From contig NC_003070.9 in assembly GCF_000001735.4 (NCBI RefSeq), forward strand, positions 21,313,971 through 21,377,970: 64,000 bases of DNA, read 5' to 3'. Positions within the stretch are counted from its first letter, which is position 1, and the number at the start of each line of letters is the position of its first letter. The translations under genes were made by a program, and so were the position numbers. Shown piece after piece: positions 4,727-50,539 of this stretch. This DNA is from Arabidopsis thaliana (taxonomy: Eukaryota > Streptophyta > Magnoliopsida > Brassicales > Brassicaceae). The notes under the pieces were generated by a model that was not told the origin of the DNA, did not search any database, and saw only the letters and a list, made by a program, of their open reading frames with translations.

Positions 4727-6640
4727 GAGGTTCCAATTAATTAATTTTCTTACATTTACATTATAAGTACTATATTTAGAAATCCTATTAAAAACCAATC
4801 ACATTATTCCTACTTTTCTGACACTTATTCGTTTTCTTATAATTTAGTCATGAATCTTTTGCCCTTCAATATTCATTTATTTCACAATCTATTGAAATTT
4901 AATTATAGATTGCAATATGCATATAATTTGATTGATAATTAACTAAATTTTCTTTTTATTAATTGCAAATCTTTGCCCAATCTGTTTCCTTAATTACGTC
5001 TATAAATGCATCATTACAAAAACCCACCGAAAATAACATCAAAAGAAGTAAGCAAAAGCAAAAGTCCTAATTTCTCCTGTCATGGACACCTTACCTCATC
5101 ATCTCCTCGACGAGATTCTCTTCAGAATAGACCACAGATCTCTGGCCATGATACAATGCACAAATAGATCTCTTCAATCTCATATACCCAAAACCCCTAA
5201 CTTTGCATCCGAATACTTTTCTCGGGTCAGATCAAGTTTGCTATACATAGCATTCAATGGCTCCCCTTTGCTCTGCTACCACCTTTACGGTGATTCTAGG
5301 TCACCGCGAACAGTAGAAGCCTTGACGGAGTGTCACATTTTAGGCTATTGCTCTGGCCTTCTTCTACTCTTCCTCAATAAAAATCTCTGCGTCGCAAATC
5401 CTCTCACAAAGAAGTTTCGTTTTTTTAATCACTCTAGGTCAAAGTTTTTTCCCTTGGGTTACTACTCTACGACGAGGTCGTCAACAAGTCATCGGGTTCT
5501 CTGTAGATCAGATTGATCGAACAACCAATAGTTTTAAAATCGTCATCATAAACGAGGTGAGAAACAGCAATGAGACAACATATGAGTTTGAGATTAACGT
5601 AGGCTATTCATGGAAACTATCGGAAACGACGTTAACTTGCTGCACAAGTAATCTTGATGACCGTATGAAAAAACCTGTTTATATGAAGGGAGGTCTTCAC
5701 TGGCTAAGAAATGACGGAGCTATCGTAGCTTTCAACCCTGAAACAGAGAAAGCACGACTGATCTCGATCAGATTCCCCAAAGAACTTTGTTCTAAAACGT
5801 TGTTCACAGCCGCAGATAACAATTTAATCTTGATATCGGCGACGGAAGAAGTCTTTTACGTTTATGCAGTAGAGAACATTCTTACTGATCCCAAGTGGGT
5901 CGTCTTGAAGCAAATCCGGAACGGGGTACTGGACGAGAAGATGCTATATAGTTGGTACCCGGAGGCTTACGATGGAAAGTGTTTAATGCTGAGGGAGATA
6001 TTGAAGAAGGACCATTACAAGCAAGTGCTTCATGGGTACGACCTGAGAGCTAATAAGTGGGAAGTCATAGGTTCGATTCCAGGGTGGTACACTTCAGCTC
6101 TAGACTTTTATCAGTTTACACCGTCTTTGTCTTCGGTAATAGGACCTGATGCCAAGGAGGAGGAAGAAATATTGGCTTGTGATCATAAAAAAATCTCCTC
6201 TATAAACTCAATTATTAGAATGCTTGATGGAATCTCATCCTAGAAAAATGGAATAGCAGCTTAGAAAAAGATTGGTTGAAGAAGAAACAAAACTAATGTT
6301 GTTGAAGAAGATGAAGCTTTTCGTCCAAGGTTTTTTTTTGTATTGTTCATGCCAAAAAAAGAGTAGAGACTGTAGAGTAGCAATCCGTACCATTTTTGGA
6401 ACATGTATCTTTTGGTTAATGAAAATGTGTGTTTTATGTTTGTTTTTCTTTTCGCTAACCAAACGCTAAACTGATGTTATTGAACTGGAAAACTAAAATA
6501 TATATCTTACTATGTTTTGCATCACTAATTCCATCGTGAAACTTCTTACTATGTTTTTGCACTTGGTTAATAGTAAAAACATAACTTTGGTAATCAATTC
6601 AATGTTAATATTTTAAGTTTGTAGCATATTCCTCTGACTG
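4727..6640 (+). repeat. F-box duplication unit, copy 1
   Basis: This stretch is homologous to about 10590-12676. Similarity starts in the promoter (CATTATAAGTACT followed by TTTAGAAATCC in both), becomes almost identical from the string TTTGCCCAATCTGTTTCC onward, runs through the F-box coding region, and fades in the 3' flank around the shared CCTCTG(G/A)CTGGATCAGTAT string. The two units flank the jacalin lectin gene. Confidence 0.8.
5082..6243 (+). pseudogene. F-box protein gene, copy 1, one frameshift
   Basis: The N-terminus [20 protein letters not shown] is an F-box, the domain that docks substrate receptors on SKP1 in SCF ubiquitin ligases. It is followed by an F-box-associated C-terminal region with motifs such as [14 protein letters not shown] and the tail tract YDGKCLML. 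The frame opened at 5082 ends near 5516, and the remainder is open in another frame from about 5557 to 6243. Compared with copy 2, this copy has six T instead of five in a run near 5445, and that single extra base explains the shift. Without it the reading frame would be about 387 codons. Otherwise it looks intact, so the break is recent. A short intron that skips the shift cannot be excluded. Annotated in TAIR as an F-box family region, from memory. Confidence 0.75.
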
Positions 6641-10314: not shown

Positions 10315-11108
10315 TCAACCTTATTATCTCCAATGTTGTCTTAATTCTCCAATCTCACTTGTATTAAGAATCATCCTCAGAACTATTTGAAAAATAAGGA
10401 GTGCAAATGATTACTGACTCTTTATATATAAAATAAGGAGTGCAAATGATTGGGAGGAGGTGCAATGGTCTAACTAGATGTGGAGGAGTAAGGGGATATA
10501 TCCACACTGGAATATAGAGAAATTCACTCAAAGTTTTGTAATTGACCAATCTCCCTATACATACAATACAATTATTTAAAAGATTATTAGGAGTTTCCTT
10601 TAATAAATTTTCTTGCATTTTCATTATAAGTACTTTATTTAGAAATCCAACCGTATTAAAAAAAACAAATCAAATTATTTCTACTTTCCTGACACTTATT
10701 AATTTTATTTTGATTTTGATCATGAATCTTTTTTCCATCATCAATTTAATTTATTTCACAATCTATTAAAATTTAATATTTATAATATATGTATATAATT
10801 TGATTGAATAATTAATAAATTTTAAAATGATTTTTTCTTAGTTATGTTTATGTTGCAAACTTAATCAAAAGAAATAACAAACAAAGGTTAATTAAATTGA
10901 AATTAATAATTGTGTGGCTCACACTTTTTAATAATTGATATGGAGACCTAAAAAGAGAGAAAATAAAATTATAGTATATGGTAATTAGTGGGACATCTTT
11001 TGCCCAATCTGTTTCCTTAATTACGTCTATAAATGCATCATTACAAAAACCCACCGAAAATAACATCAAAAGAAGTAAGCAAAAGCAAAAGTCCTAATTT
11101 CTCCTGTC

Positions 11109-12282
11109 ATGGACACCTTACCTCATCATCTCCTCGACGAGATTCTCTTCAGAATAGACCACAGATCTCTGGCCATGATACAATGCACAAATAGATCTCT
11201 TCAATCTCATATATCCAAAACCCCTAACTTTGCATCCGAATACTTTTCTCGGATCAGATCAAGTTTGCTATACATAGCAACCCATGGCTGCCCTTTGATC
11301 TGCTACCACCTCTACGGTGATTCTAGGTCACCGCGAACAGTAGAAACCTTGACGCAGTGTCACATTTTAGGCTATTGCTCTGGCCTTCTTCTACTCTTCC
11401 TTAATAAAAATCTCTGCGTCGCAAATCCTCTCACAAAGAAGTTTCGTTTTTTGAATCACTCTAGGTCAAAGTTTTTCCCTACGGATTTTACTCTTCGAGG
11501 AGGTCGTCAACAAGTCATCGGGTTCGCCGTTGATCAGACTGATCGAACCACCCCGAGTTTCAAAATCGTCAACATAAAAGAGGTGAGAAATGCCACTGAA
11601 ACAACATATGAGTTTGAGATTTAACGCAGGAGATTCATGGAAATTATTGGAAACGACATTAACTTGCTGTACAAGTAATCTTGATGACCATATGAAAAAA
11701 CCTGTTTATATGAAGGGAGCTGTTCACTGGCTAAGAAATGACGGATCTATCGTAGCTTTCAACCTAAAAACAGAGAAAGCACGACTAATTCCGATTAGAT
11801 TCCCCAAAGAACTTTGTTTAAAAACGTTGTTCACAGCCGTAGATAATAATTTAACCTTGATATCGGCGACGGAAGAAGTCATTTACGTTTATGCCTTCCA
11901 TAACATTCTTAGTGATCCCAAGTGGGTCCTCGTGAAGCAAATTCGGAACGGGGTACTGGACGAGAAGAGGCTATATAGTTGGTACGTGGAGGCTTACGAT
12001 GGAAAGTCTTTAGTGTTGAGGGAGACAATATTGAAGAAGGACTATTATAACAAGCATCTGAAGCAAGTACTTCATGGGTACGACCTGAGAGCTAATAAGT
12101 GGGAAGTCATAGGTTCGATTCCAGAGTGGTCCCCTTCAGGTCTAGACTTTTATCAGTTTACACCGTCGCCTTCTTCGGTGATAGGACTTGATGACAAGGA
12201 GGGGGAAGAGATATTGGCTTGTGATGATAAACGTATCCCTTCTGTAAACGCCATTATGAGACTGATTTATGGAATCTCATGA
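11109..12282 (+). pseudogene. F-box protein gene, copy 2, one frameshift
   Basis: Same architecture as copy 1: an F-box in the first 45 codons and an F-box-associated domain behind it. This copy reads through the region where copy 1 is shifted ([19 protein letters not shown]), but has one extra T near 11623 (GAGATTTAAC against GAGATTAAC), which brings an immediate stop. The rest of the frame is open to 12282. Without the insertion it would encode about 390 residues. Compared with copy 1 it also carries a four-codon insertion near 12046 (NKHL). The damage lies at a different place from copy 1, so the two copies broke independently. Confidence 0.75.
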
Positions 12283-12412
12283 GAAAGAAATGAAAAAGAT
12301 TGGTTGAAGAAGTATAATGGTGTTGAAGAAGATGAAGCTTTCGTCCAAGTTCGTGGAAAACAAAGAAGAGTGGGAGTAGACAAATTCGTATCACATGTGG
12401 AACATTATTCAG

Positions 12413-23478: not shown

Positions 23479-24442
23479 TCAATCTCTGTGATGACTCTGC
23501 AAAGAATCCTCCAAATCAAGATCAACACCAACACGATTCCGAATCGATGCATTAGCGTGGCACGAAGAAGAAGAGCAAGACGTTATCTTCCACTTGTTCT
23601 CCAGTTCTTTAAACCTCTCAGCATCAAACTTATGACTCTTAAGCAACTTCCTCTGCCTGGAAAGAAACAACCTTTTCATGAAATCTTGATACGTTGGATC
23701 TCTAGAAGTCATCAAGAAATAAGCATAACCCACAATAATCCCAGTAGCTGTAGTGAAAAACGTTATTGGTTCCATCACATCCCAAGAAAACTCCCAAAAA
23801 GTTAGCCTAACAAAGATTCCAATTTGAACCACTGAGTAACCAAGACCACCCCATAGAATCTTCCTCACTTGTTGATGAGCTAACACATCAATCTCTTCCT
23901 TCATACTTCTCATCTTATCAAACTCTTCTCTAATCAACTCATCATCTGGATTCAAACCTAAAGGCACTGCCTTTCTAATCAAATCCACCACCTACAAGAA
24001 ACAGAGTCTCATTAATAGAAACAGAGAGATTAGGGTTTTCAAAATAGATGCGTTTTTGTAAGATTTCACAAACCTTATGAGGATGAAGATAGACTTTATC
24101 ACGAAAGATCAAAATAACACCAGCATCATCAAGAACACGAGCAAAAGCATGAGCTTCATCAAGAGATCTAGCGATACCTAAACCTTGAGATGCTTCAATA
24201 AGTGTAGTGTAAGTAACCATTTCTTTATCACCCATACCAATAAGCTTCTTCTTCATATCTTCAACATTCACTAATCTCATTAACTTCTTAGCTTCTAACA
24301 CAGTCATATCCTTTTTCTCATCTTCTTCCTTAGACTCAACGTTGAGACATCTAAACCCACCAAGCAAAGACCTAACCGGAGAAGCTTTATTCACGGTGGA
24401 GGACATAGCCGTACGTCTCACTAAACCCATCACCGACCACAT
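23479..24442 (-). CDS. MCU2: mitochondrial calcium uniporter pore protein
   Basis: Two exons, 24442-24074 and 23991-23479, both phase 0, giving 293 residues. The N-terminus is rich in Arg and Ser without acids ([20 protein letters not shown]), as expected of a mitochondrial presequence. The C-terminal half holds a coiled-coil stretch ([20 protein letters not shown]), a first membrane span, the MCU selectivity motif WDVMEP at about residues 193-198 (equivalent to DIME), and a second span ending in a [14 protein letters not shown]-type matrix segment. MCU tetramers conduct calcium into the matrix across the inner membrane. Length fits plant MCUs. Locus AT1G57610 from memory. Confidence 0.93.
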
Positions 24443-27529: not shown

Positions 27530-28560
27530 GGGAAAAATGTCGTTTAATACCCCAACTTTTAAATTGTGGCCATTTTATACCTCAACTTTACATGCGGCCA
27601 TTTTAAACATAAAGATATCGTTGACCAACCGTTTAAACTATAAACATTCGTTGACAATCGTTTAAACTATAAACATTCGTTGACCAGGCCAAAAAAACTA
27701 ACTGTTAACAGTCGTTAACTGATTATCTAACGTCTGTTAACATCTCTGTTAGCCACCTTTAAATGCCGTCGTTTTTATCTTTTAAAAAGAAATGATGACT
27801 ATAGGATTCGAACCGTTCACCTTCAAGTGCTCCCAATGCTTGTCAATACCAACTAAGCTAGACTGTTTAATGATTACTATCCAAAAACACGTAATTATAT
27901 ATTATGCTATTAGATACCTCAGATCCGCTAAGAGCAATAACGGTGTAGGTGCGAGAACGAAGGTGCATGTGAGACGACGAAGAACTGTGCTATTTGTGTT
28001 ACTGATTTCATATGAATTGACGAATCTATCAATGGTGTTCATAAGAACAGGTTGCGATGAATTGAATTTACCAAATTCGAATTCTTTTCAATCAACGAAA
28101 AATGATATGATTAATACTAAAAAATAAATCATCTGAGAGAGAACCCAGATTTGGAGGCGGCGGCTATGGTGGAGATGTTTCGTAGGTTAAAGATGAAGAA
28201 GAAAACTTTTAAAACTATATAATTATATTTGTTTCGTAAGGTTACCAATAAAATATAATTGGTGAGATGGTTAAGTAAGGGTCTTGTTTTTGCCGCAGGT
28301 TGTGAGTTCGAATCGTAAGTTCGTCAATTATTTTTAAAAGATGACAACGACGTCGTTTAAAGGTGGCTAACGGAGATGTTAACAGACGTTAGATAATCAG
28401 TTAACGACTGTTAACGGTTAGTTTTTTTGGCCTGGTCAACGAATGTTTATAGTTTAAACGGTTGGTCAACGATATCTTTATGTTTAAAATGACCGCATGT
28501 AAAGTTGAGATATAAAATGGCTACAATTTGAAAATTGGAGTATTAAACGACATTTTTCCC
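27530..28560. mobile_element. non-autonomous DNA element with ~250-bp terminal inverted repeats
   Basis: The left end begins GGGAAAAATGTCGTTTAATA and the right end is its reverse complement. The repeats match over about 245-275 bases at roughly 90 percent or better. The left repeat carries an extra tandem copy of about 31 bases (ATCGTTTAAACTATAAACAT and flanks). The middle 450 bases lack a transposase. Long inverted repeats suggest a Mutator-like (MULE) derivative, but I see no clear 9-bp target duplication, so the family is uncertain. At the inner edge of each repeat lies a tRNA-like box A/box B pair: left on the minus strand (27849-27860 and 27804-27814), right on the plus strand (28262-28275 and 28304-28314). 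Confidence 0.75.
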
Positions 28561-31668: not shown

Positions 31669-32187
31669 ATGGCTTCTTCTTCTTCTTTATCTCTTTCATT
31701 TCCTTCATCTTCTTTGTCTCGAACCTGGGATTACGATGTTTTTCCGAGCTTTCACGGGGAAGATGTACGCAAAGCCTTTCTCAGCCAGATTCTCAAGAAG
31801 GAGTTTGGAAGAAAAGCAATCAACTTTTTTGTTGATCACGAGATGGAGAGAGGAGAGTTCATCGGTCCTGTACTCAAACAGGCGATCAAAGGATCTAAGA
31901 TTGCTCTTGTCTTGCTCTCCAAGAATTACGCTTCTTCGTGGTGTTGTCTTGACGAATTGGTGGAGATCATGAAGAAAGAGTCGGGTCAAACGGTGATTAC
32001 CATTTTCTATGAAGTTGATCCAAATGAAGTAAAGAAGCAGACCGGAGATTTTGGGAAGGCCTTCAAAGAAACTTGTCAAGGTAAAACTGAGGAAAAGGTT
32101 CAGACATGGAGGAAAGCTTTGGAGGGTGTGGGTTTGGCCACAATCGCAGGTTTTCATTCAAGCAACTGGTTCGTGTTCTTTATTTAA
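31669..32187 (+). CDS. TIR domain exon of a disrupted TIR-NBS-LRR gene
   Basis: A 172-codon frame opens with a Ser-rich lead and a full TIR domain (about residues 24-160): WDYDVFPSFHGEDVRKAFLS, then INFFVDHEMERGEFI, then the NADase-type Glu in SSWCCLDELVEIM, FYEVDPNEVKKQTGDFGKAF, and the GLATIAGFHSSNW end. In intact TNL genes the exon ends at this Trp; a GT donor at 32169-32170 splits that codon (TG|G). Beyond it the frame reads five more codons to a stop, so an unspliced transcript gives a TIR-only protein. The matching next exon lies at 37440, after a Copia insertion starting 22 bases past the donor. PSFHG replaces the usual LSFRG. TAIR treats it as AT1G57630 (from memory). Confidence 0.88.
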   Translation: MASSSSLSLSFPSSSLSRTWDYDVFPSFHGEDVRKAFLSQILKKEFGRKAINFFVDHEMERGEFIGPVLKQAIKGSKIALVLLSKNYASSWCCLDELVEIMKKESGQTVITIFYEVDPNEVKKQTGDFGKAFKETCQGKTEEKVQTWRKALEGVGLATIAGFHSSNWFVFFI

Positions 32188-32191
32188 TTTC

Positions 32192-32376
32192 TGATAAACT
32201 TAAGACAAGATGTAGTTTGGTTTATGTTGTCTTGCGTTATTAAAGAGGCGTTAAAACCTTACTTATACAAAGCAAAAGATATAATCTAAAGTGTTGCACA
32301 AACGAAATGACTAAACAGGACAAATATATATTGTTGACTAAGCTAACTAAAATATTGACCAGCAATAGCTTCAACA
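32192..32376 (-). repeat. Copia LTR, left (3' LTR)
   Basis: 185 bases beginning TGATAAACTTAAGACAAG and ending AGCTTCAACA, with one difference from the right LTR. Confidence 0.95.
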
Positions 32377-35300
32377 TCCTCCCTCAAGGTGGAGCATGCA
32401 CATCGAGAATGCCCAACTTGCGCAGAAAGTAACGAACTTCCTTTTCACCCAAAGCCTTAGTTAGAATATCTGCAAGCTGCTTGTGAGAGGGAACAAACGA
32501 AGTCGCAATTATACCATCAAGAATAGCATCGCGGATAAAATGACAATCCACCTCAACATGTTTGGTGCGCTCATGCTGAACTGGATTGACACTGAGAGCA
32601 ATTGCAGATTTACTGTCAGAGAAGATGCGCATAGCCTGAACGTGAGAGACACCAAGATCATAAAGCACCCGCTTGAGCCACATGAGTTCTTGAGTAAGGA
32701 ATGCCATAGCTCTATATTCAGCCTCCGCGGAAGAGCGACTGACAGTGGGCTGCTTTTTCGTTTTCCAAGATATGGGAGTATCACCAAGCTGTACAAAGTA
32801 TCCTGTGAGAGAGCGACGAGTGAGAGGGCAAGCAGCATAGTCACTATCACACCAACCATTAATCTGCAGAGTAGAGGTGCTAGAGAGTAAAATCCCTTGT
32901 CCTGGGTTAGATTTCAAATAGCGAACAACACGAATGGCGGCGTTCCAATGGTCCTGACGCGGATTCTGCATAAACTGTGCAAGAGTGTGAACAGAATATG
33001 ATAGCTCAGGACGTGTTACAACCAAGTAAATGAGTCTCCCAACTAGACGACGATACCGTGAAGAGTCAGAAAGCAGAGGAGATGTAGACAAAGAGAGCTT
33101 ATGATTCTGTTCAAGCGGAAACGCAGACGGCCTAGCCCCCAAAAGTCCCATTTCAGAAATAATATCAAGAACATACTTCCTTTGGGACAGGTAGAATCCT
33201 TGAGCATTGCGGCTCACTTCAATGCCAAGAAAATATTTGAGCAAGCCAAGGTCTTTCATGTGAAAACATGATTCTAGATAGGATTTAAATTGAGCAACAG
33301 CATCAGGGCAGCTACCCGAAATGATCAGGTCATCGACATATACGAGGACATGAACAAAGATACCATCATTGTTGTAACTGAACAGAGAGTAATCCGACAA
33401 AGATTGTGTGAACCCATATTGTTTTAAAGCAGAAGAGAGCTTGGAAAACCAACACCTTGGAGCTTGTTTCAAACCATACAGAGATTTATGAAGACGACAT
33501 ACCTTGCTAGGATCATCACATTGAAATCCCTGAGGCAATTTCATATACACTTCCTCCTTTAAGTCACCGTGAAGGAAAGCGTTATGCACATCCATTTGAT
33601 GTACATGCCAATCACGGGCCGCAGCCACTCCCAAAAACAAACGCACCGTGCTCATTTTTGCAACCGGAGCAAAAGTTTCATCATAATCCACGCCTTCTTT
33701 TTGACAATTACCCAAGACTACCAAACGAGCTTTATATCGCTCTATCGCCCCATCCGATCGATACTTGATTTTGTATACCCATTTGTTGCCAAGAGCCCGC
33801 TTTCCTGGAGGCAAATTTACAATCGAGAAGGTTTGATTAACTCGCAGAGATTCAATCTCAGCAGACATAGCCTCTCTCCAAGCTTTGTCAACCATAGCCT
33901 CGTTGTAAGTTGTTGGTTCCATTCCAGCAGTGACAGCTGCGAGAAAAGCCTTGTGCGACGAAGTGAATCGATGGCAATCCACGTATTTCTCAATTGGATA
34001 CAGAGAGGAGGAAGAAGCCTCAGGGGAAATCGATTCAACACTCACAGTATTGGTGACAAAATTCTTCAACTTCATCGGTTTTTGTGTTTGGCGAGAACTA
34101 CGTCTAAGTTGTATTGGCGCCGGTGTTGTAGATGACAGTGGAAGATCTGCTGTCTGTACGGTGCTTGATGCTAAAAAAGGATCGAGAGAGGAGAGAGAGA
34201 CAAACTCACTTGGACTTGAAGATTCTTGATTGATTTCAGGTATTATTGGGCCAGTTGCAACATTCGGCCCAACTGTAGCTTCACCAATATTTCGTCCAAT
34301 AATAGTTCTTGGCCCAATAGCTTCTTCAATAAAAGGTGGCCCAACGCAATCCACCAATACACGTTCATCTTCCTCATTGCACGACATCTTGGAGTATGGA
34401 AACTCTGTTTCCTGGAAAATCACATCTCTAGACACGAAGAATTTTTGTTCTTCTAAATCAAACAGCCTCCACCCTTTTTGTCCATGTGGATACCCAACAA
34501 ATACACATCGTCTTGATCGTGCCGCAAACTTATCTCCTTTATGATTTTGGTTATGTGCATAACACAAGGAACCAAATACACGAAGATGAGAGTATTTCGG
34601 AGCCGTTTTATATAACATCTCATATGGAGATTTACCTTGAAGAAGCATCGAGGGAGTGCGGTTGATAAGGTAAGCCGCAGATAAGATACACTCTCCCCAG
34701 AACTGAATTGGCAAATACGATTGAAATCGCAAGGCTCTCGCGATATTCAAAATATGTCGATGCTTCCTCTCAACCCTTCCATTTTGATGCGGAGTCCCAA
34801 CACATGAAGTTTCATGAGCAATGCCTTTGTGTAGAAAGTACTCACGCATACATAGAAACTCAGTCCCATTATCACTTCTTACTATTTTGATCTCAGTGTC
34901 AAATTGTCGTTCAACTAAAGCAATGAAATCTTTCAAATGTTTCTGAGTTTCACTTTTATCAGTCATCAAATAAACCCACACACCACGAGAATAATCGTCA
35001 ACGATTGTCAAGAAATATCGAGCACCGGAGTAAGAAGGTGCTCGATAAGGCCCCCACACATCACAATGAATTAGCTGAAAACTATCCATACTTCTATTAT
35101 CACTTAGAGGAAAAGTATCACGGGTTTGCTTAGCTCGCATACATGTATCACATACATTCTCCAAAATCTCTTTACCACTAGACAAAAGTTCTCTAGGCAA
35201 CAAGTTAACTATCTTGTCTGATGCGTGTCCCAAACGCCTATGCCATAGATCAAAAGGGGCCTTCACACTCGTGTGCACAGCAGCAGCATTCTCCATTCCC

Positions 35301-36886
35301 CGAAAACAAAAGCTTCCATTCTCTCTTTTACCAATTCTAGTCACCATCCTCGTAGTGCGGTCCTGTATCACAAGGAAGTGATCAGCAAGTTAAACCACAC
35401 AATGATTCTCATCCATCATTTGCCCAACAGAGATCAAATCTGATTCCAACTCCTTGACATAGAAAACTGATTTTAATATCAGATGCGAGCCTAATCTAAC
35501 TGTTCCCTCACTGACAGCAACTCTCTTATTTCCATCAGCTAAGATAATTAAAACAGGAGACATGGATCGCATATCACTCAACAATTCCAGGTTTCCAGTC
35601 ATATGGTGTGAAGCACCTGTGTCGAGTATCCAAGAAGTGAAAAGAGAACATGTACCTGATTGAGTTTCATGAGCATTGGACTTGTTATCGCTTCTTCCAG
35701 CATTGAGAAGCTTAACAACTCCACGCCATTGCTCATCAGTAAGCCCACTGACTGCATCACGATCGCTATCAGTGATAACCCGGTTCACATGTTCAGAAGA
35801 TGGAAACGGTCCAGTCATGACGACATTCACATACGTTGGACGAGGTTGTCCTCCATTAAAACCAGGCCCAAATCTTCCTCTGCCACGACTTGTTGAGCCA
35901 TTTGAATTTGATTTTCCTCTTGGGCGATCTCCCCACCACTCTGGATATCCAATCAACACAAAGCAATTTTCCGGCGAATGACCTCCACGGTTACAATGAG
36001 TACAAAGTTTCTTGTTTTGAAGCTTCTCTGAATTTGCAAACTTCTCTGAGATTACCTCAGAACGTGGCCGCATTTGAACAGCAAAAGCAGTGACATCGGT
36101 TCTCTCTTCATTAGACGATCTGTTGTTCACCATATCTTCTTCTTGTCGCACAATGTTGTAAACCTCTTCCAGCCCGGGGAGAGGAACACGAGACGTCAAA
36201 CTTGACCGTATGGTGTGAAATTTAGTTTCATTCAGTCCATAAAGATATTGATGAACCATGTCATCTTCTCGATATTTTTCTTGGTCTGTTCCAAGATTGC
36301 AGATACACCTACCACATTTACATATCCGAAGAGGGCGATAGCTGTTGATATTATCCCAAATCTTGTTGAGTTTTCCATAATATCCTTCCACTGTCATACC
36401 CTCTTGCTTGCAAGTCGCGAGATCCGCCTTCATCTTCTGATTCTTTGGCCCATTAGAAACAGAAAAACGCTTCCGAATCTGTTCCCACAAGTCTCTCGCC
36501 ACATCACGGTGAGAGATATTTGTCAGCAGCTCTGAGTCAATAGTCATCTTCATCCAAGAGACCAACAAAGCATTAATCGTTAACCAATCTTCTAGATCTG
36601 GAGAACCATCTAGTGGTTGAGGAATGGTTCCATCAAGGAAACCAAACTTTTTCCTAGACCGCAACGCCGTCTTGAAACCACATGCCCACTCTTCATAGTT
36701 ATTTGTCTTCAGTATCGGATGGGAGATCACAGCTCCCGAATTGTCAGCTGCCGTCAAGTCGTACGGCGAAATTGTGCGTCGGACCTCAATTACAGATGGA
36801 GGTGGTGGTGGAGCATCAGCCATAGCTTCAGAGAAAACTCACTTGAAATACTCAATTCGAAAAACCCAGATTGCGCTCTGATACCA

Positions 36887-37071
36887 TGATAAACTTAAGA
36901 CAAGATGTAGTTTGGTTTATGTTGTCTTGCGTTATTAAAGAGGCGTTAAAACCTTACTTATACAAAGCAAAAGATATAACCTAAAGTGTTGCACAAACGA
37001 AATGACTAAACAGGACAAATATATATTGTTGACTAAGCTAACTAAAATATTGACCAGCAATAGCTTCAACA
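36887..37071 (-). repeat. Copia LTR, right (5' LTR)
   Basis: 185 bases, same ends as the left LTR. The primer-binding site lies immediately to its left on the plus-strand map. Confidence 0.95.
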
Positions 37072-41449: not shown

Positions 41450-42394
<945 letters not shown>

Positions 42395-43198
42395 GTTTTT
42401 TCCATTTTATTATCATTCTCTACTCAGAATTTTTGCACTTGCTTTTTTAATGATGTTTTTGTATCAATTAAGACTAATTTCTATATGGTATGAAAGTGCA
42501 ATTCAGATTTTGTTATTAAGATTGCTTATCATAATCATTTGCTTATTGCATTTGTTTGTTTCTGAAATCATTTATGCATCCTTAGTTAAAACTGAAATGT
42601 TTATCAGTAAATCATATAATGCTAGTATCATAGTATGAGACATTTTGATTGTTGTTGAGTAGTCTTTTGTTACTACACTCCAAGGACAATAACCATTGTT
42701 TTGATGTGGGATTAATAGAAAACAGTTCCTTGGTAACATAATTACAAACCAAATGTAGAAAATACAAATGTGATATCGTCTTAAACTCGACTCACGATTT
42801 CAAGACACCAAATGTAATGCATTTCCACAAAGGAACAATGTTTCAATTCAAGGTTGTGTACTCAGCTGCCTAAGCCAATGGTTACAGTTCAATCTCCAAT
42901 ATAAAAGACATTTTTGTCTGACACTGATTCAGTCTTCTTCTAGCTTTCATTTCAAAGAAACCATCTGCATAATAAAGCAACCGTTGCTCTTCTAATTGTA
43001 GATTAGTTTATTCCTTTTAATCCATTAAAACTACATCAAGAAACTGAAGCAAATTTTATTTATTTCCATTAGCAATTGAAGCCACAAAAAACAAAGAGAC
43101 GAAATCGATAACAAAAGCTCGCTCAGACATGCTTACCTGCCCAACGGCTCGAAATAGCCACAAAACACAAAGAGACGAAATCGAAAACAAAAGCTCGC
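42395..43198. other. convergent spacer between L21 and the TIR-repeat gene
   Basis: 3' UTRs of both genes. Near 43095-43150 and 43155-43210 the string AAACAAAGAGACGAAATCGA, followed by AACAAAAGCTCGCTCAGACA, occurs twice, a local tandem duplication of about 60 bases that overlaps the end of the minus-strand coding region. The segment around 42470-42580 recurs in decayed form at 47528-47620. Confidence 0.6.
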
Positions 43199-45902
43199 TC
43201 AGACAGACTTATCAGCCCAACGGCTCGAAATAGCCACAACAGAGCCAACTTGACTAGCAAGAATAACCATGGTTGGTGAGGCACACTTGTGAACAATTTC
43301 ATTTAGTAAGCCGAGCACTGCACCAACCAGCTCAACCGCAGAGCCAAACCATAACCATGGCAGAGCCAGTGGAACGTAAAATGTTTTCACTTTCTTCACA
43401 CAATCATCTTCTCTTCCTTCACCAGAACGAACAGTGTTAATGATGCCAAGCACTGAACCAATCAGCTCTACCGCCGAACCAAACCATAACCATGGCAGAG
43501 CCAGTGCAATGTTAAATGTTTTCACTTTCTTCACGCAACCATCTTCTTTTCTTTCATCAGATTGAACAGCCTTAATGAGTAAGCCGACCACTGCACCAAT
43601 TAGTTCAACCGCCGAGCCAAACCATAACCATGGCAAAGCCAGTGGAACATTAAGTGTTTTCACTTTCTTCACAAAATCAGCTTCTCTTCTTCCTTCATCA
43701 GCGTGAACAGTCTCAGCGAGTAAGCCGAGAATTGCACCAATTAGCTCAACCGCCGAGCTAAACCATGACCAAGGCAGAGTCAGTGGAACGTTAAATGTTT
43801 CAACATCCTCCACACAGTTGCCTTCTTTTGCTTCATCAGATTGAATAGTGGTTAAAACTTCCTCAACCGCCTTCAGAACCTTCTTGATAAATTTGGCCTC
43901 GGATCTGTATAATTAGTATAAAATTATGGAGGCAAATCAAAATGGTTAACCTCGCGAATCAATCGGACTTAGATCATTAGCATATATTCAAGTTCATTTA
44001 ACCCCACTTGGGGTTTGGGGTTTGGGGTTTGGGGTTAGAGACTAGGTTAATACCTTGTCAGAGAAGCAAAGATGCAGAAAAATATATATGCAAATTTTTG
44101 AACAAAATATCAACTATAGACTATAGTATTAATTTCAGTTGTTGATGAAAAAAAATATTAAGTATTCAAAAAATAATATTGTCAGGAGCCTCTTATTATA
44201 GTTCAACAAAATAAAGTAATTATCTTCAACTAAGTATTAGTAAAAACATACTCCATTTGAATAAAAATCAAGTAGATTGACTTTATCAATTTATCACATA
44301 ATGACTTTTCTAAAACGAAATTGTCGTCACACGGTAGCTTTCTCGAAATAAAAACTTAAACGGAGCACGGTACATAAAGATTGTTTAAGAAAAAAAAGTA
44401 AGAAACTTTACATCTTAGATATTTTAGAATTATACGTTGATTATCGTTAGGTTAAAACAATTATTGGTGTAGTGTCATATTTTCCATTTTTCGTTTGTGC
44501 AGGAAAGTGAAAGAACATTTTTTTTTAAACACTTGTAGTTCTTTGTAAACTTTTCCATCACTACTTTAATGGGGAGGTGGAAATACATAAATAAACTTTT
44601 CCATCAAAAATCAAATCAAGATATGTAATAAACTAGTATCCGTTTATAGATAATTGAACTCGTATGCGTGTATATTAGCAACAAAACGCATATATATTTT
44701 CAACACGTAGAAGGTAAACTCCACGGTTTAAACGGTTGTTTAGGCTGTCGCCTAGCGCCTAGTGCTTAGACGGGAACCTACACGCCTAGATCGCTTTTTA
44801 CAACAATGGAATTTATAGTACGGATTCATCTAAAGAAATGTCAACAAGAATGATAATAACGATAAACAATCAATGTTTAACCTGAAAATAATTTGGCGGC
44901 AGGCCCGACTCTATGGGGCGGAAGTCCAGGGTCCATGTGAAATTTTGTTTTTAAAACCTTTGAATAAAGGGATCCAAAAGAAAAAAGAAAAAATATTGTG
45001 AAAAGGCCCTGCAAATTTAGATTTCCTAGGTTCTAAGAAAATATTGAGACAAGACTTAGCGTTGTGTGTTTTCGACGATTATAGGTCATTTGAGAAAAGC
45101 CGAATTTGATCTAATTCAGATTTTTTTTGGAAATAGTCGGATCATCAACTAAAGCCGTGAAACGTTGACTTTTTTCGGGAAAGAGATTAGTATAAATGAC
45201 GAGCTCATCATATCCGTTACGTCGTTCATGTTCTAAATAGAAACAATTTTGGTAGTATATATTGTTCACGAAAGAAAATAATACAACTATCGTATATTTT
45301 TCTGAATTGGTTGGAACTCTAAATTGAGTAGGGCTTTTACGGCTCAAGTGGAAATAATAAACAAAAAATGAGCTCACTTACCTTTTAAGATCCAACGTGA
45401 GTCCAATTTTGTTGCACACAGCCTTCAAAGCCACTTGCCATTTCTCCATCTCTTCAAGACTTGCTTCTTCATCGCAACTCCAAAACATATGGCCGAACTC
45501 TCCCGTTTGTTTCTCCACGTCTTCCGTTCTCACTTTATAGAAGATTGGGATGACAATCATTTGCCCTTTTTCTTCTTGGTCCATGATTGTCGTCAGTTCT
45601 TCCAAACACCATTTTGATTCCCCATACCTAATCAGAATAGTTTTCAGGTTAATAATATATATTGAGCAATGAGCATAACCGGAACATTACCTTGGGGATA
45701 AGATGACCAGCGCGATCGTGGCCTCTTCAATCCGTTTAAAGAGGTGGTTCAGGTCTCTTCCCTTTTGTTCATGTGTATCGATGAAGAAGTTGATATTTTT
45801 TCTTTTCAAGGCATCTTTAAGATGACTGACAAAGCCGTGGCGAATATCCTTTCCCCGGAAGTTGATGAAAACTTGATTGACGGGGCGAGATAGAATTGCC
45901 AT
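43199..45902 (-). CDS. TIR protein with four hydrophobic C-terminal repeats
   Basis: Three exons, 45902-45691, 45627-45382 and 43904-43199, phases matching, giving 387 residues. Residues 1-150 are a TIR domain: [35 protein letters not shown], the NADase-type Glu in [12 protein letters not shown], and [20 protein letters not shown]. There is no NB-ARC or LRR, so it belongs to the TIR-X group. The last exon opens with a charged helix ([20 protein letters not shown]) and then holds four repeats of about 46 residues, each a basic start (CVKKVKTF), a hydrophobic segment ([20 protein letters not shown] followed by LGLL), and an acidic linker with Glu, Arg and Asp. The hydrophobic part could insert in a membrane or stack as an amphipathic helix. 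TIR domains cleave NAD in plant immunity; an immune role is inference. The second intron is 1.5 kb. Locus AT1G57670 from memory. Confidence 0.85.
43260..43830 (-). repeat. four ~138-bp coding tandem repeats
   Basis: Each unit contains variants of CGGCTTACT, GCACCAA, AGCTCAACCGC and GAGCCAAACCATAACCATGG on the plus strand, and TTTTCACTTTCTTCAC. Units 2-4 are closest to each other, which fits expansion by unequal crossing-over. A single decayed unit of the same type lies at 48113-48292. Confidence 0.85.
44010..44034 (+). other. G-quadruplex-type tract (GGGGTTT repeats)
   Basis: Four GGGG runs separated by TTT, within the large intron of the TIR-repeat gene on the strand opposite to its transcript. 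It is not the plant telomere repeat (TTTAGGG). Confidence 0.85.
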
Positions 45903-46147
45903 AGTTGGTTCAAGAAGACTTCTTCTTTCTCACCCCAATTGTAGAGGTGTAGGAGTGAAGGCAAGACATTGTGGGTATATATCCACTATGACTTAGAATC
46001 TCTCGATGTCACGGAGAAAAATATCATATATATTTATATTTTTGTAAAATTTATATATCTAATTATTACTAACTGATGCATTCTTGTTTTGACATATGGC
46101 ATAAATCTCAAATCCTACTCTTTTATTTCTTTTTTATTTCATACATA
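45903..46147. other. upstream region of the TIR-repeat gene
   Basis: Short promoter region with nothing distinctive. It ends at the large hairpin beginning at 46148. Confidence 0.4.
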
Positions 46148-46305
46148 TTTAAATGTTAGGTTAAGAATGAATCAAGATGATTCATATTATAGTAACCAAC
46201 ATATTCAATACTTTCAAATGAAGAAAAATAATTGGCATCTTCATTTGAAAGTATTGAATATGTTGGTTACTATAATATGAATTCATTCTTAACCTAACAT
46301 TTAAA
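46148..46305. repeat. 158-nt near-perfect hairpin (43 + 25 bp stem)
   Basis: 46182-46224 pairs perfectly with 46238-46280 (43 bp, 13-nt loop at 46225-46237), and 46148-46172 pairs perfectly with 46281-46305 (25 bp). The only interruption is a 9-nt bulge (46173-46181) in the left arm. No target duplication is visible at the ends. It lies about 250 bases upstream of the TIR-repeat gene. Such a long clean stem fits a young microRNA or hairpin-siRNA locus, or a recent palindromic insertion. Confidence 0.85.
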
Positions 46306-47527
46306 CAAATAACAAAAATTGATAGTTATCTAGGAAAGAGAAAATTTAAATACAAGAATATGACTGGTCACTGGACGCAATCGTTTTATACAAAAATATA
46401 ATATTGTGAATGTAAACAACTTTTCAAATTATAATATCAAACTAAAATTTAAATTTAAAAAATGTATTACTAAAATTTATGGTAAAAAATAATTAGAATC
46501 TCATTAGGAAAATAATGGAGTCTTCAAAAATCTTGAATGGTCTACAGATTAAAAGAATCAAATATAGAATGGTTCCTAGCAAATTAGTTCGAGAAGAATC
46601 ATTCCAAAAATAATAAAAGCACGTCTTATATTTTTTCACATCCTTACATCAATATTCGTTTATCTAATCTTTGTTTTGGTCTTTTGGTTTGTCTCGGATG
46701 GATATATAAATTTATAAATTCATTAACCATGCATAGTTTGTAAAAGAAATTCATTAAGAAATACCGGATAAAAATATTCGAATTAACAGAAGTGCTTGTT
46801 ACGAGCGTGCCTTTTTATTGACCAAAGTATACTTATGTAGCCTACACTACATCTCAATTGGTTCGACCATGGTTGAGCCTTGAACGACCAGAATTCTCTT
46901 GGAAGATGGGGACCCTTGGACCGTTAGTTGCGCTATGTCTGGTAATGTCGTCGACGCCTCGACGGCGCACGGCCACTCTCAATTCTGGATACCTCCACCA
47001 AGGTATGTTATCTATAATCTTTTATCACAAACACATGCTTGGATTACCATATCTATGTCATAAGCTTATGCTTTCTTAAGGTTATTGTACCAATCCATGA
47101 GGTTGAAGAGCTTTAAACTTTGTTCTCCTTTGGATTGAATGAACAAAAACAAGTACGTATGTTTGCACAGAAAAAAAAGCCTACTAGCTAGGAAAAGAAA
47201 ATAAAAATTGTTTGTAACGTACTCTTCAAAATTTGCCAAAGTTTTATAATACAATAACTAGTAAAAGGATTAGGTTGTCAGTTGGAAAACATATAAAAAT
47301 ATCCAATGAGAAAAGATCAATAAATTTCCTAATTAAATTGAATCACACTAATCTACATGTAGTAAGCAGATTCATTAGTTCAGAGGGTTCTAATATCATT
47401 GCTATAATTTACACAACACTATTTCAAAATTAAGTTAAAACAAAGATGATACACATAAGATTTCAATAACATTGTGAATAAGATTTACACTAAACACTTA
47501 ACTGAGTGATTGGTTTGTTTATCAAAC
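46306..47527. other. intergenic spacer
   Basis: AT-rich. A GC-richer island at about 46855-47005 (one frame reads SGNVVDASTAHGHSQFWIPP before a GT) looks like an exon relic of unknown origin. No intact gene seen. Confidence 0.4.
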
Positions 47528-48292
47528 AAGGCTGATTTCTATATGTTGTGACTTTATGATAAAGTCTTTATCATAATCATTTGCTTACTGTATTATTTTG
47601 TTTGTAAAATCATTTGTAAGTTGATTATGCAGCCGGATCATAACAAAACAAGAGTTCAAGAATCAATGGATCAATGGATCAAGAAGTTTGTTTTGGTGCT
47701 CTGAATTATTTGTTTAAACAGGGAGAACTCGAAGACTTCAATGTTGAAGAAAGCTCTTCTTTTATTCAATCAAAAACCAAGTCTCTAAAGAGACATTACA
47801 TATATTTTTATATAGCTAAGTCACAATCGACTTTAGCCTTACCAAAACCCTAATTGAAAAGTAAAGTTCAACAAAGAAAAGAAAATCAAACAAGAAACAG
47901 AAGAAGTAATAAAGCTTATGTCTTGCACAAAAAGTAATAAGGATGACGATACATCAGTTGATGTATCATCAAATGGCACACGCATGATTATTTTAATATG
48001 TATATATGCCCGTTTTGTTTAATTCTGATTATATCTAAATACATTAAAAGAAAATTTTAAAAAATAAACTGAACTGTGAAAAATATTCTGATTATACCTA
48101 AATATGACATTTTTACTCAGTCTCATCAAGTAAGCCGAGCACTAAACCTATCAGCCCAACCACCGAGCCAAACGATGACCATGTATGTATCAGTGGAACG
48201 TTAAATGTTTTCACCTTCTTCACACAATCGTCTTCTCTTCCAATTATCAGATTGGATGGTTTAAATGTTCTCGGATCTTCTTGACAAACTTG
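47528..48292 (-). pseudogene. decayed duplicate of the L21 3' flank and TIR-repeat last exon
   Basis: 47528-47620 resembles the L21 3' flank (CTGATTTCTATATG, TTATCATAATCATTTGCTTA, AAATCATTT). Further right, 48113-48292 on the minus strand resembles the last exon of the TIR-repeat gene: CCAAGTTTGTCAAGAAG at its start, then a single repeat unit reading [15 protein letters not shown] followed by FGSVVGLIGLVLGLL and DETE-stop. The order and orientation match 42470-43904, so this is one duplicated block with a single repeat. No TIR exons accompany it. Confidence 0.7.
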
Positions 48293-48778: not shown

Positions 48779-49867
48779 TTAGTTCTCAGCTTCCAGAAAT
48801 AGGCTGAGTTCCACATACCTCTCCTGTGTAGACGATCCCGAGTCTCTCCGACCTCTTAAGCTCAATCCCTCATCAGTTTGTGAAGAGTTTGGTGCAAGTA
48901 ACAGAGCACCACTGCGTTCTTCGGTCACAGCCGTATCCTCATCATCTGTGTCTCTTAGACCTCTCAGGGCCATGGAATCTGAAACCGGGAAGTAGACAAG
49001 CAAGCAGATGGATACCACGCAAAAGCAGAAGAGGGAGAGGAAGGCCAAGAAAGAAAGGGCTTCGAATATAATCTTGTCTGCTGCTGTGAGAACCGACAAA
49101 CAGAGCATAACAATCCTTAATGGAAGGAAACTCGAGACCGAGAATATCAAAGTGTATACTCTCTTCTGTAAACGCTTGTTAATGACAAGTTTCAGTATCT
49201 GCCTTCCAAGCCAGAACAAGTAAGCTGTTAGGACGGCTGCAAACACACCAAGAAGGATGGTACTCAGTAGAGGATATGTGCATAAGGCCACCTCGTCGTG
49301 ATCAATAATAACTCGGGAATACGTTCTTGTGAAGTCGTGTGGCAGCTTTACATAAGAGCCACTACCACCATTTAGGCGTGACTCGGACAACACAACCGCA
49401 AGTTGAAGAGCAAGCATCGGGAGACAATAAAGAATAATATAACCTGCTGTGTCCCTGTTCCATTTTCCGCTCAAAGCCCCTGATTCCATCTTCAAGGGAG
49501 CACGCAGAAGAAACATGAGAGTCAGAAAGAGACAAGGCTCCGCAAATCCTAGATTGGAAACGATGTACCACTTGCAAACGTTTTCTTGCCATCTCAGATC
49601 CAACCCACTCAACAACCTTCTGTGACGCCTCAACAAACTCAATCGAAAAATCTCACCAACAGCCCACCAGATAGCAAAGAGAATGAAAGTGATTCGGATA
49701 ATCCAGGGACCACTGAAGTAACCAAGTTGAATATAGCCTTGCTTACGAACGTGAGACTGGAAATAGAACGAGTAAGCGATGCAAAGGAGACCCAAAAGAA
49801 CTAGCAGAGCGACTAGACATATCGTCACAACGCCGAATGCATCGGGAACTAATTTTGTCAGGGGCAT
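48779..49867 (-). CDS. CAND1: candidate G-protein-coupled receptor, seven-transmembrane protein
   Basis: A single coding exon of 362 residues from ATG at 49867 (MPLTKLVPDAFGVVTICLVA). In-frame codons further upstream include no ATG. Hydrophobic segments number about seven: residues 11-35, 52-75, around 105-125, 145-165, 205-230, 250-270 and 280-305. The C-terminal tail is hydrophilic, with acidic and Ser-rich stretches (RDTDDEDTAVTEERSGALLL). This is the plant CAND1 family described as predicted heptahelical receptors; the ligand is unknown. The upstream CT-rich region indicates a 5' UTR, probably with an intron. Locus AT1G57680 from memory. Confidence 0.9.
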   Translation of the reverse strand: MPLTKLVPDAFGVVTICLVALLVLLGLLCIAYSFYFQSHVRKQGYIQLGYFSGPWIIRITFILFAIWWAVGEIFRLSLLRRHRRLLSGLDLRWQENVCKWYIVSNLGFAEPCLFLTLMFLLRAPLKMESGALSGKWNRDTAGYIILYCLPMLALQLAVVLSESRLNGGSGSYVKLPHDFTRTYSRVIIDHDEVALCTYPLLSTILLGVFAAVLTAYLFWLGRQILKLVINKRLQKRVYTLIFSVSSFLPLRIVMLCLSVLTAADKIIFEALSFLAFLSLFCFCVVSICLLVYFPVSDSMALRGLRDTDDEDTAVTEERSGALLLAPNSSQTDEGLSLRGRRDSGSSTQERYVELSLFLEAEN

Positions 49868-50539
49868 CACCCAAAACACAGTATCCACGCATGCTCTCTA
49901 CCAGCATGGATGCAGAAACGTTCTCTAGCAATAGCAGTGCAATGTGCCCTTTCTCTCCCAACAAATTTCCAGATTAGTTACTACTCATTGATGAAAAACG
50001 GAGAAAGATTGAACCTTTTACGAAGCTATCCAAGTCAGAGCAAAGTTTCTGCAATTAGATTACAAAAGAAAGCAGCCCAGATCACCCGATAGAACTTTTT
50101 GTGATCTTGACTCTTTAACACTTGATATGCGTGTTACCTACATAAACTAAACAAAACAACAAATAATCAAAAACTTACCAAATATACCAAAAATTTGAAA
50201 CAAAGACCTATCAAACCATCTTAACCCTAGATCTTAAAAAGTCATAACCTTTCTCAAAACTAAAGCAACCTTGAAGATTAAGATGATTAACACACAAATC
50301 AATAACAATATTGAAATACATAAAGCCAAGTCATAACCTTTAAACACAGAATCTCAAGAGATAATACCCAAAACTTCAAAGTCAATACACGAGAGAAGGA
50401 AATAGTGAAAACAATCGAATACCCAATAATGCAAATAGGAAAAAAATCAAAACTTTCAGATCCAAACAAAGACCAATAAAAAAAAGAACCAAAATTGGTG
50501 AGATTGAAAGGGAGAAGAAAGCTTACAAGGAGGAGAATC

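Follow-up and report, generated by a model that had tools for sequence, protein, structure and literature searches.

In many TIR enzymes of plants, an NB-ARC domain serves as the switch, and others are small TIR-only proteins (PMC8813719, PMC9153377). A review attributes NAD cleavage and cNMP synthesis to a glutamate in helix C (Glu88 of RPS4) together with a cysteine (PMC9153377). TIRP (At5g44900) is described as carrying one predicted membrane segment, and its overexpression as leading to necrosis in N. benthamiana (PMC11943168). AtTIK (At5g44920) is reported to join a TIR domain to a C-terminal membrane segment and to be located at the nuclear envelope/ER (PMC7746251, PMC7746247). A survey of nine TIR-class proteins with membrane segments reports one segment in six of them, two in two and more in one (PMC3532234).

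Here we describe a TIR gene of Arabidopsis thaliana in which the TIR domain is followed by four tandem hydrophobic units. The window, that is, the whole stretch of DNA that was analyzed, is 64,000 nucleotides long. The features of the gene and of a solitary repeat copy are as follows.

45902-43199, minus strand: TIR gene, from the ATG at 45902 to the stop that ends at 43199; 387 residues in three exons
45691..45902, minus strand: exon 1 (212 bases), encoding residues 1-70 plus two bases of codon 71, from the start through the first half of the TIR domain
45628..45690, minus strand: intron 1, 63 bases, GT-AG, inside the TIR domain
45382..45627, minus strand: exon 2 (246 bases), encoding the TIR domain's second half, where C78 and the catalytic-type E81 lie
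43905..45381, minus strand: intron 2, 1477 bases, GT-AG
43199..43904, minus strand: exon 3 (706 bases), RPS4-like post-TIR linker, four hydrophobic repeats, tail and stop
43706..43843, minus strand: repeat 1, residues 174-219, acidic start
43565..43702, minus strand: repeat 2, residues 221-266
43427..43564, minus strand: repeat 3, residues 267-312
43292..43426, minus strand: repeat 4, residues 313-357
43202..43291, minus strand: C-terminal tail, residues 358-387 (30 residues), with a further hydrophobic stretch, ending in ADKSV
48116..48241, minus strand: solitary fifth unit (DNA repeat match 48134-48267), 4.4 kb from the array and apparently a fragment

Within the window, Pfam locates a ribosomal L21e domain at 41597-41893 and a calcium uniporter domain at 23482-23991. 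The protein encoded at 48782-49870 gave no Pfam match, and we take it to be Cand1. A Copia-type retroelement at 32192-37071, with reverse transcriptase and integrase (Pfam), 185-base LTRs identical at 184 of 185 positions and a 5-base target duplication (ATTTC), is flanked by a TIR exon (31.6-32.2 kb) on one side and a ROQ1-type winged helix piece (37.3-38.1 kb, Pfam) on the other; the TIR exon, the element and the winged helix piece are presumably At1g57630, At1g57640 and At1g57650. The window also contains a two-part inverted repeat at 27530-28560 (arms of 126 and 159 bases, 95% and 91%) and a pair of nearly duplicate genes, presumably F-box-like, at 4972-6256 and 10999-12298 (four pieces with 85-98% identity). 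In the literature, RPL21E is At1g57660 (PMC3830539), AtMCU2 is At1g57610 (PMC10485843), and Cand1 is At1g57680 (PMC2530877). The TIR gene lies between the L21e gene (At1g57660) and Cand1 (At1g57680) and is therefore At1g57670 of Arabidopsis, which the list in PMC7969532 types as TIR-X (TX). Hence, the locus is already known and belongs to a known class, and the tail is its unusual part. The portions of literature that we located under At1g57670 or on related TIR proteins do not mention the repeat array, which may be described elsewhere.

The three-exon model proposed in an earlier, sequence-only reading of this DNA was confirmed: the coordinates are exact and both introns are GT-AG. The phases match at both junctions, where the split codons restore SPRYGE and LKRSEAK. 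The predicted join between exons 2 and 3 is supported because exon 3 opens with the linker that trails the TIR domain in RPS4, and we infer that exon 2 is spliced to exon 3 across the 1477-base intron. This second intron is long by the standards of Arabidopsis, has a GC content of 0.32 compared to 0.43-0.45 in the exons, and contains 4.1 perfect copies of the telomere-like motif TTGGGGT at 44008-44036 (Tandem Repeats Finder). Its retention would introduce a stop codon immediately after LKR. Both this stop and the length of the intron speak for a different explanation, namely that the gene is a decaying remnant of which a TIR-only product, or no product at all, matters, and in which the repeat array is neutral. 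We consider such decay rather unlikely, and the intact splice sites argue against it. The expression record in PMC7969532 cuts both ways: the gene is called "non-altered" over 37 conditions, which would suit decay, yet other genes in the same study are called non-expressed, which At1g57670 is not.

Repeats of other kinds occur near both ends of the gene. A 76-base tandem duplication (43080..43231, 70 of 76 positions identical) covers the end of the coding sequence and the 3' side of the gene: the final codons and the stop lie in the copy at 43156-43231, and the outer copy contains CAGGTAAGC, a sequence that resembles a splice donor. Upstream of the gene, an inverted repeat at 46137-46316 starts 235 bases before the ATG. 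Its inner arms of 45 bases match perfectly across a gap of 13 bases, and its outer arms match at 80%; it may be a small mobile element or give rise to small RNA.

The claim that the gene encodes an apparently complete TIR domain, including the Glu used for NAD cleavage, is supported by domain searches and by alignment. Pfam TIR (PF01582) matches the joined protein at E 8.1e-41 over residues 10-177. The exon 1 piece alone matches the same family at E 4.2e-12, and the exon 2 piece with a few flanking codons at E 9.9e-19. Among solved structures, 21 distinct sequences match the protein at E 0.001 or better, the best being the TIR domain of RPS4 (PDB 4c6r, E 6.6e-39), with a match to residues 7-172 that runs from exon 2 into exon 3. 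In this alignment, E81 and C78 of the motif WCLEEL coincide with the Glu and Cys of RPS4, so that the helix C Glu and the neighboring Cys by which plant TIR NADases are recognized are both present. We take the aligned RPS4 Glu to be Glu88. Residues S26-H27 align with the SH pair of RPS4, presumably part of the TIR-TIR surface. Judged by alignment, the TIR domain is complete and has catalytic-type residues, and the At1g57670 protein may be an active enzyme that cleaves NAD.

The statement that repeats stand in place of NB-ARC and LRR also holds. In the joined 387 residues, Pfam at E 0.001 reports TIR and TIR_2 only, with neither NB-ARC nor LRR, and the hydrophobic units occupy the place of NB-ARC. 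Exon 3 alone gives 8 Pfam families at E up to 1, each under its cut-off and none of them NB or LRR. By Pfam, the protein therefore shows both marks of the TIR-X (TX) class, a TIR domain and the absence of NB and LRR.

Tandem Repeats Finder describes the array as 3.9 copies with a period of 135, 80% matches and a score of 687, and the other three units share 77, 78 and 87% DNA identity with unit 4. Four hydrophobic units had been predicted and are present, but their period is not fixed at 46 residues: the anchor Trp residues at 200, 247, 293 and 338 are spaced by 47, 46 and 45 residues. The corresponding spacings of 141, 138 and 135 bases are all multiples of three, and the frame stays open across the four units, both of which argue against decay. 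In the four units, 17 of 38 aligned positions are identical, including a Glu in the core, and yield the pattern ExxxVxxVxTxxxxLxLPWxWFxSAVELxGxxxGxxxx. The basic start attributed to the repeats is found in three of the four (VKKVKT in units 2, 3 and 4), but unit 1 begins with the acidic VEDVET (net -3 over 12 residues). Units 2 and 3 combine a net positive start with a net acidic linker after the core; in unit 4, the start is net +1 and the linker 0, and unit 1 is acidic on both sides of the core. The longest exact runs shared among units 2-4 measure 19-28 bases, and those between unit 1 and the others 11-13 bases. Unequal exchange is therefore possible and not especially favored, so that the proposed similarity at the DNA level would permit expansion and contraction of the array rather than promote it. 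Chance origin of the exon 3 frame was also considered and rejected, since none of 2000 mononucleotide shuffles reached the 234-codon open frame (longest 174); the spacings in multiples of three likewise speak against chance.

The fifth copy (48134-48267) is 72% identical to unit 4 at the DNA level, and its best local match is with unit 4 (83%), followed by units 2 and 3 (79% each) and unit 1 (77%). Its frame ends in LLDETE and a stop right after the core, which reads VVGLIG and has lost the Glu. The preceding stretch resembles the start of exon 3 at 15 of 17 bases, which is a weak match (E 0.093). When the whole protein was searched over the window by tblastn, TIR matches appeared at 31738-32130 as well as at the gene itself. 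One weak match (31% identity, E 4.7e-04) lies next to the fifth unit and extends upstream as far as residue 142, where the TIR domain ends; its upstream part was taken as an extension of the repeat match, and no convincing TIR exons were found there by tblastn within the window. The fifth unit is either what is left of an earlier tail with one unit or a copy that has shrunk. Under either origin, the number of units would have changed at this locus.

Relatives of the repeat were sought more widely. Scans with exon 3 of viral and genome contig collections, both without plants, returned 2 and 82 pattern matches, of which none was confirmed as a relative. The Pfam matches of exon 3 include no transposon family, in a comparison that covers protein families. 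In NCBIfam, three families appear at E up to 1. The best of them, a lipoprotein family, has an E of 7.7e-05 but scores 22.5 bits where its cut-off is 207; the match covers one hydrophobic stretch, and we regard it as a resemblance of composition.

Comparison of the units weakly suggests that the repeat is under coding constraint. Across the four units, the sites that vary at the three codon positions number 18, 5 and 17 of 37 each, with the fewest at the second position (P 0.02); leaving out unit 1, the counts are 10, 4 and 11 and not significant (P 0.18). A simulation from the consensus shows a clear deficit of residue changes, relative to neutral, for repeat 3 (P 0.034); repeats 1, 2 and 4 give P 0.34, 0.45 and 0.14. 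The fifth copy was intended as the unconstrained control, yet its P of 0.082 is as low as that of most units, and the simulation therefore fails to separate it from them. Pairwise dN/dS, over 34 codons and with no significance test attached, ranges from 0.25 to 0.60 for the six comparisons among the units and from 0.58 to 0.77 for the four that involve the fifth copy. The weakness of this constraint, a fragment that scores as well as the units, and the very presence of a solitary fragment near by are all points in favor of decay.

Turning to the protein, the repeat cores have a 19-residue Kyte-Doolittle hydropathy of 1.53-1.89, and no segment of the TIR domain reached 1.2. Rough insertion energies are borderline for the cores (-0.14 to +0.74); the hydrophobic stretch in the tail has a hydropathy of 1.62 and a rough energy of +2.43. 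Membrane insertion of the units is plausible from these values. Given the core Glu and the equal charge polarity of units 2 and 3, the units may be re-entrant, lie on the membrane surface or form oligomers instead of crossing the membrane as four helices. In the last case, the repeats would form a soluble or membrane-surface oligomer, with the strand-like KKVKTFNV and a hydrophobic helix in each unit building a self-associating solenoid that clusters the TIR domains. We judge this solenoid unlikely. An AlphaFold model from the single sequence (pTM 0.46) does show strands and helices in alternation within the units, and the shared charge polarity of units 2 and 3 as well as the Glu in all four cores would be in line with such a fold. 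However, this model has a mean pLDDT of 49.9 and stays below 70 at every residue, a second model of units 3-4 from four aligned rows lacks strands (pLDDT 39.9), and of 867 Foldseek matches to the low-confidence first model none reached E 0.001 (best E 6.5e-03, TM 0.23). Both low-confidence models form a helix in the later part of every core (four of four and two of two).

The earlier reading of the sequence is accurate on almost all points, and its interpretation is supported in part; forced oligomers, a copy number that differs between accessions and assembly governed by the array are its proposed elements. Since TX proteins with a single membrane segment are in print (TIRP and AtTIK), the likeliest reading of At1g57670 is that of a multiplied membrane-tail segment. 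We give about an even chance to a TX gene that consists of an RPS4-like TIR domain, the linker and a tail unit multiplied to four, with the TIR domain held and concentrated on a membrane by the array. A hydrophobic tail unit would have been multiplied in tandem to four after the post-TIR linker, and the array would hold a cytosol-facing TIR domain on a membrane inside the cell, either the ER or the nuclear envelope. Concentrated there, the TIR domains might pair and act on NAD as protein levels rise. Attachment to a membrane, the choice of membrane and the promotion of assembly by the array would each be part of this picture, and crowding, pairing and NAD cleavage its putative outcome. The stop directly after the core of the fifth unit fits a single-segment tail and counts for the multiplied tail. 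Against membrane holding, we count the invariant Glu in mid-core together with the borderline energies, and also the same charge polarity of units 2 and 3, which would be unexpected for alternating membrane helices. The length of intron 2, the weak support for constraint on the repeats and the lack of a confirmed relative of the repeat in the plant-free collections scanned also count against this reading.

A further step, which we find quite doubtful, would be that the number of units sets the strength of TIR clustering on the membrane, so that the threshold of the enzyme depends on a coding array able to gain and lose units instead of on an NB-ARC switch. If the TIR domain does ride on a tandem hydrophobic array, the locus would be a natural case in which to ask whether membrane crowding alone suffices to activate a TIR domain and whether the number of encoded repeats adjusts its activity.

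By description, AtTIK resembles At1g57670 in that a TIR domain is followed by a hydrophobic C-terminal part. This likeness would also suit a KASH-type linker of the nuclear envelope, an explanation that we think very improbable: AtTIK has one C-terminal membrane segment before PPPS, whereas At1g57670 has four units and a 30-residue tail that ends in ADKSV, not PPPS or VPT, and KASH membership was rejected on this ground. TIRP, again by description, shares with At1g57670 a TIR domain without NB-ARC and LRR and a hydrophobic segment, but its predicted membrane segment is single where At1g57670 has four tandem units. RPS4 provides the closest solved TIR domain (4c6r) and has the post-TIR linker in common with At1g57670. 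After its TIR domain, RPS4 continues into NB-ARC and LRR; in At1g57670, the hydrophobic units stand in that place.
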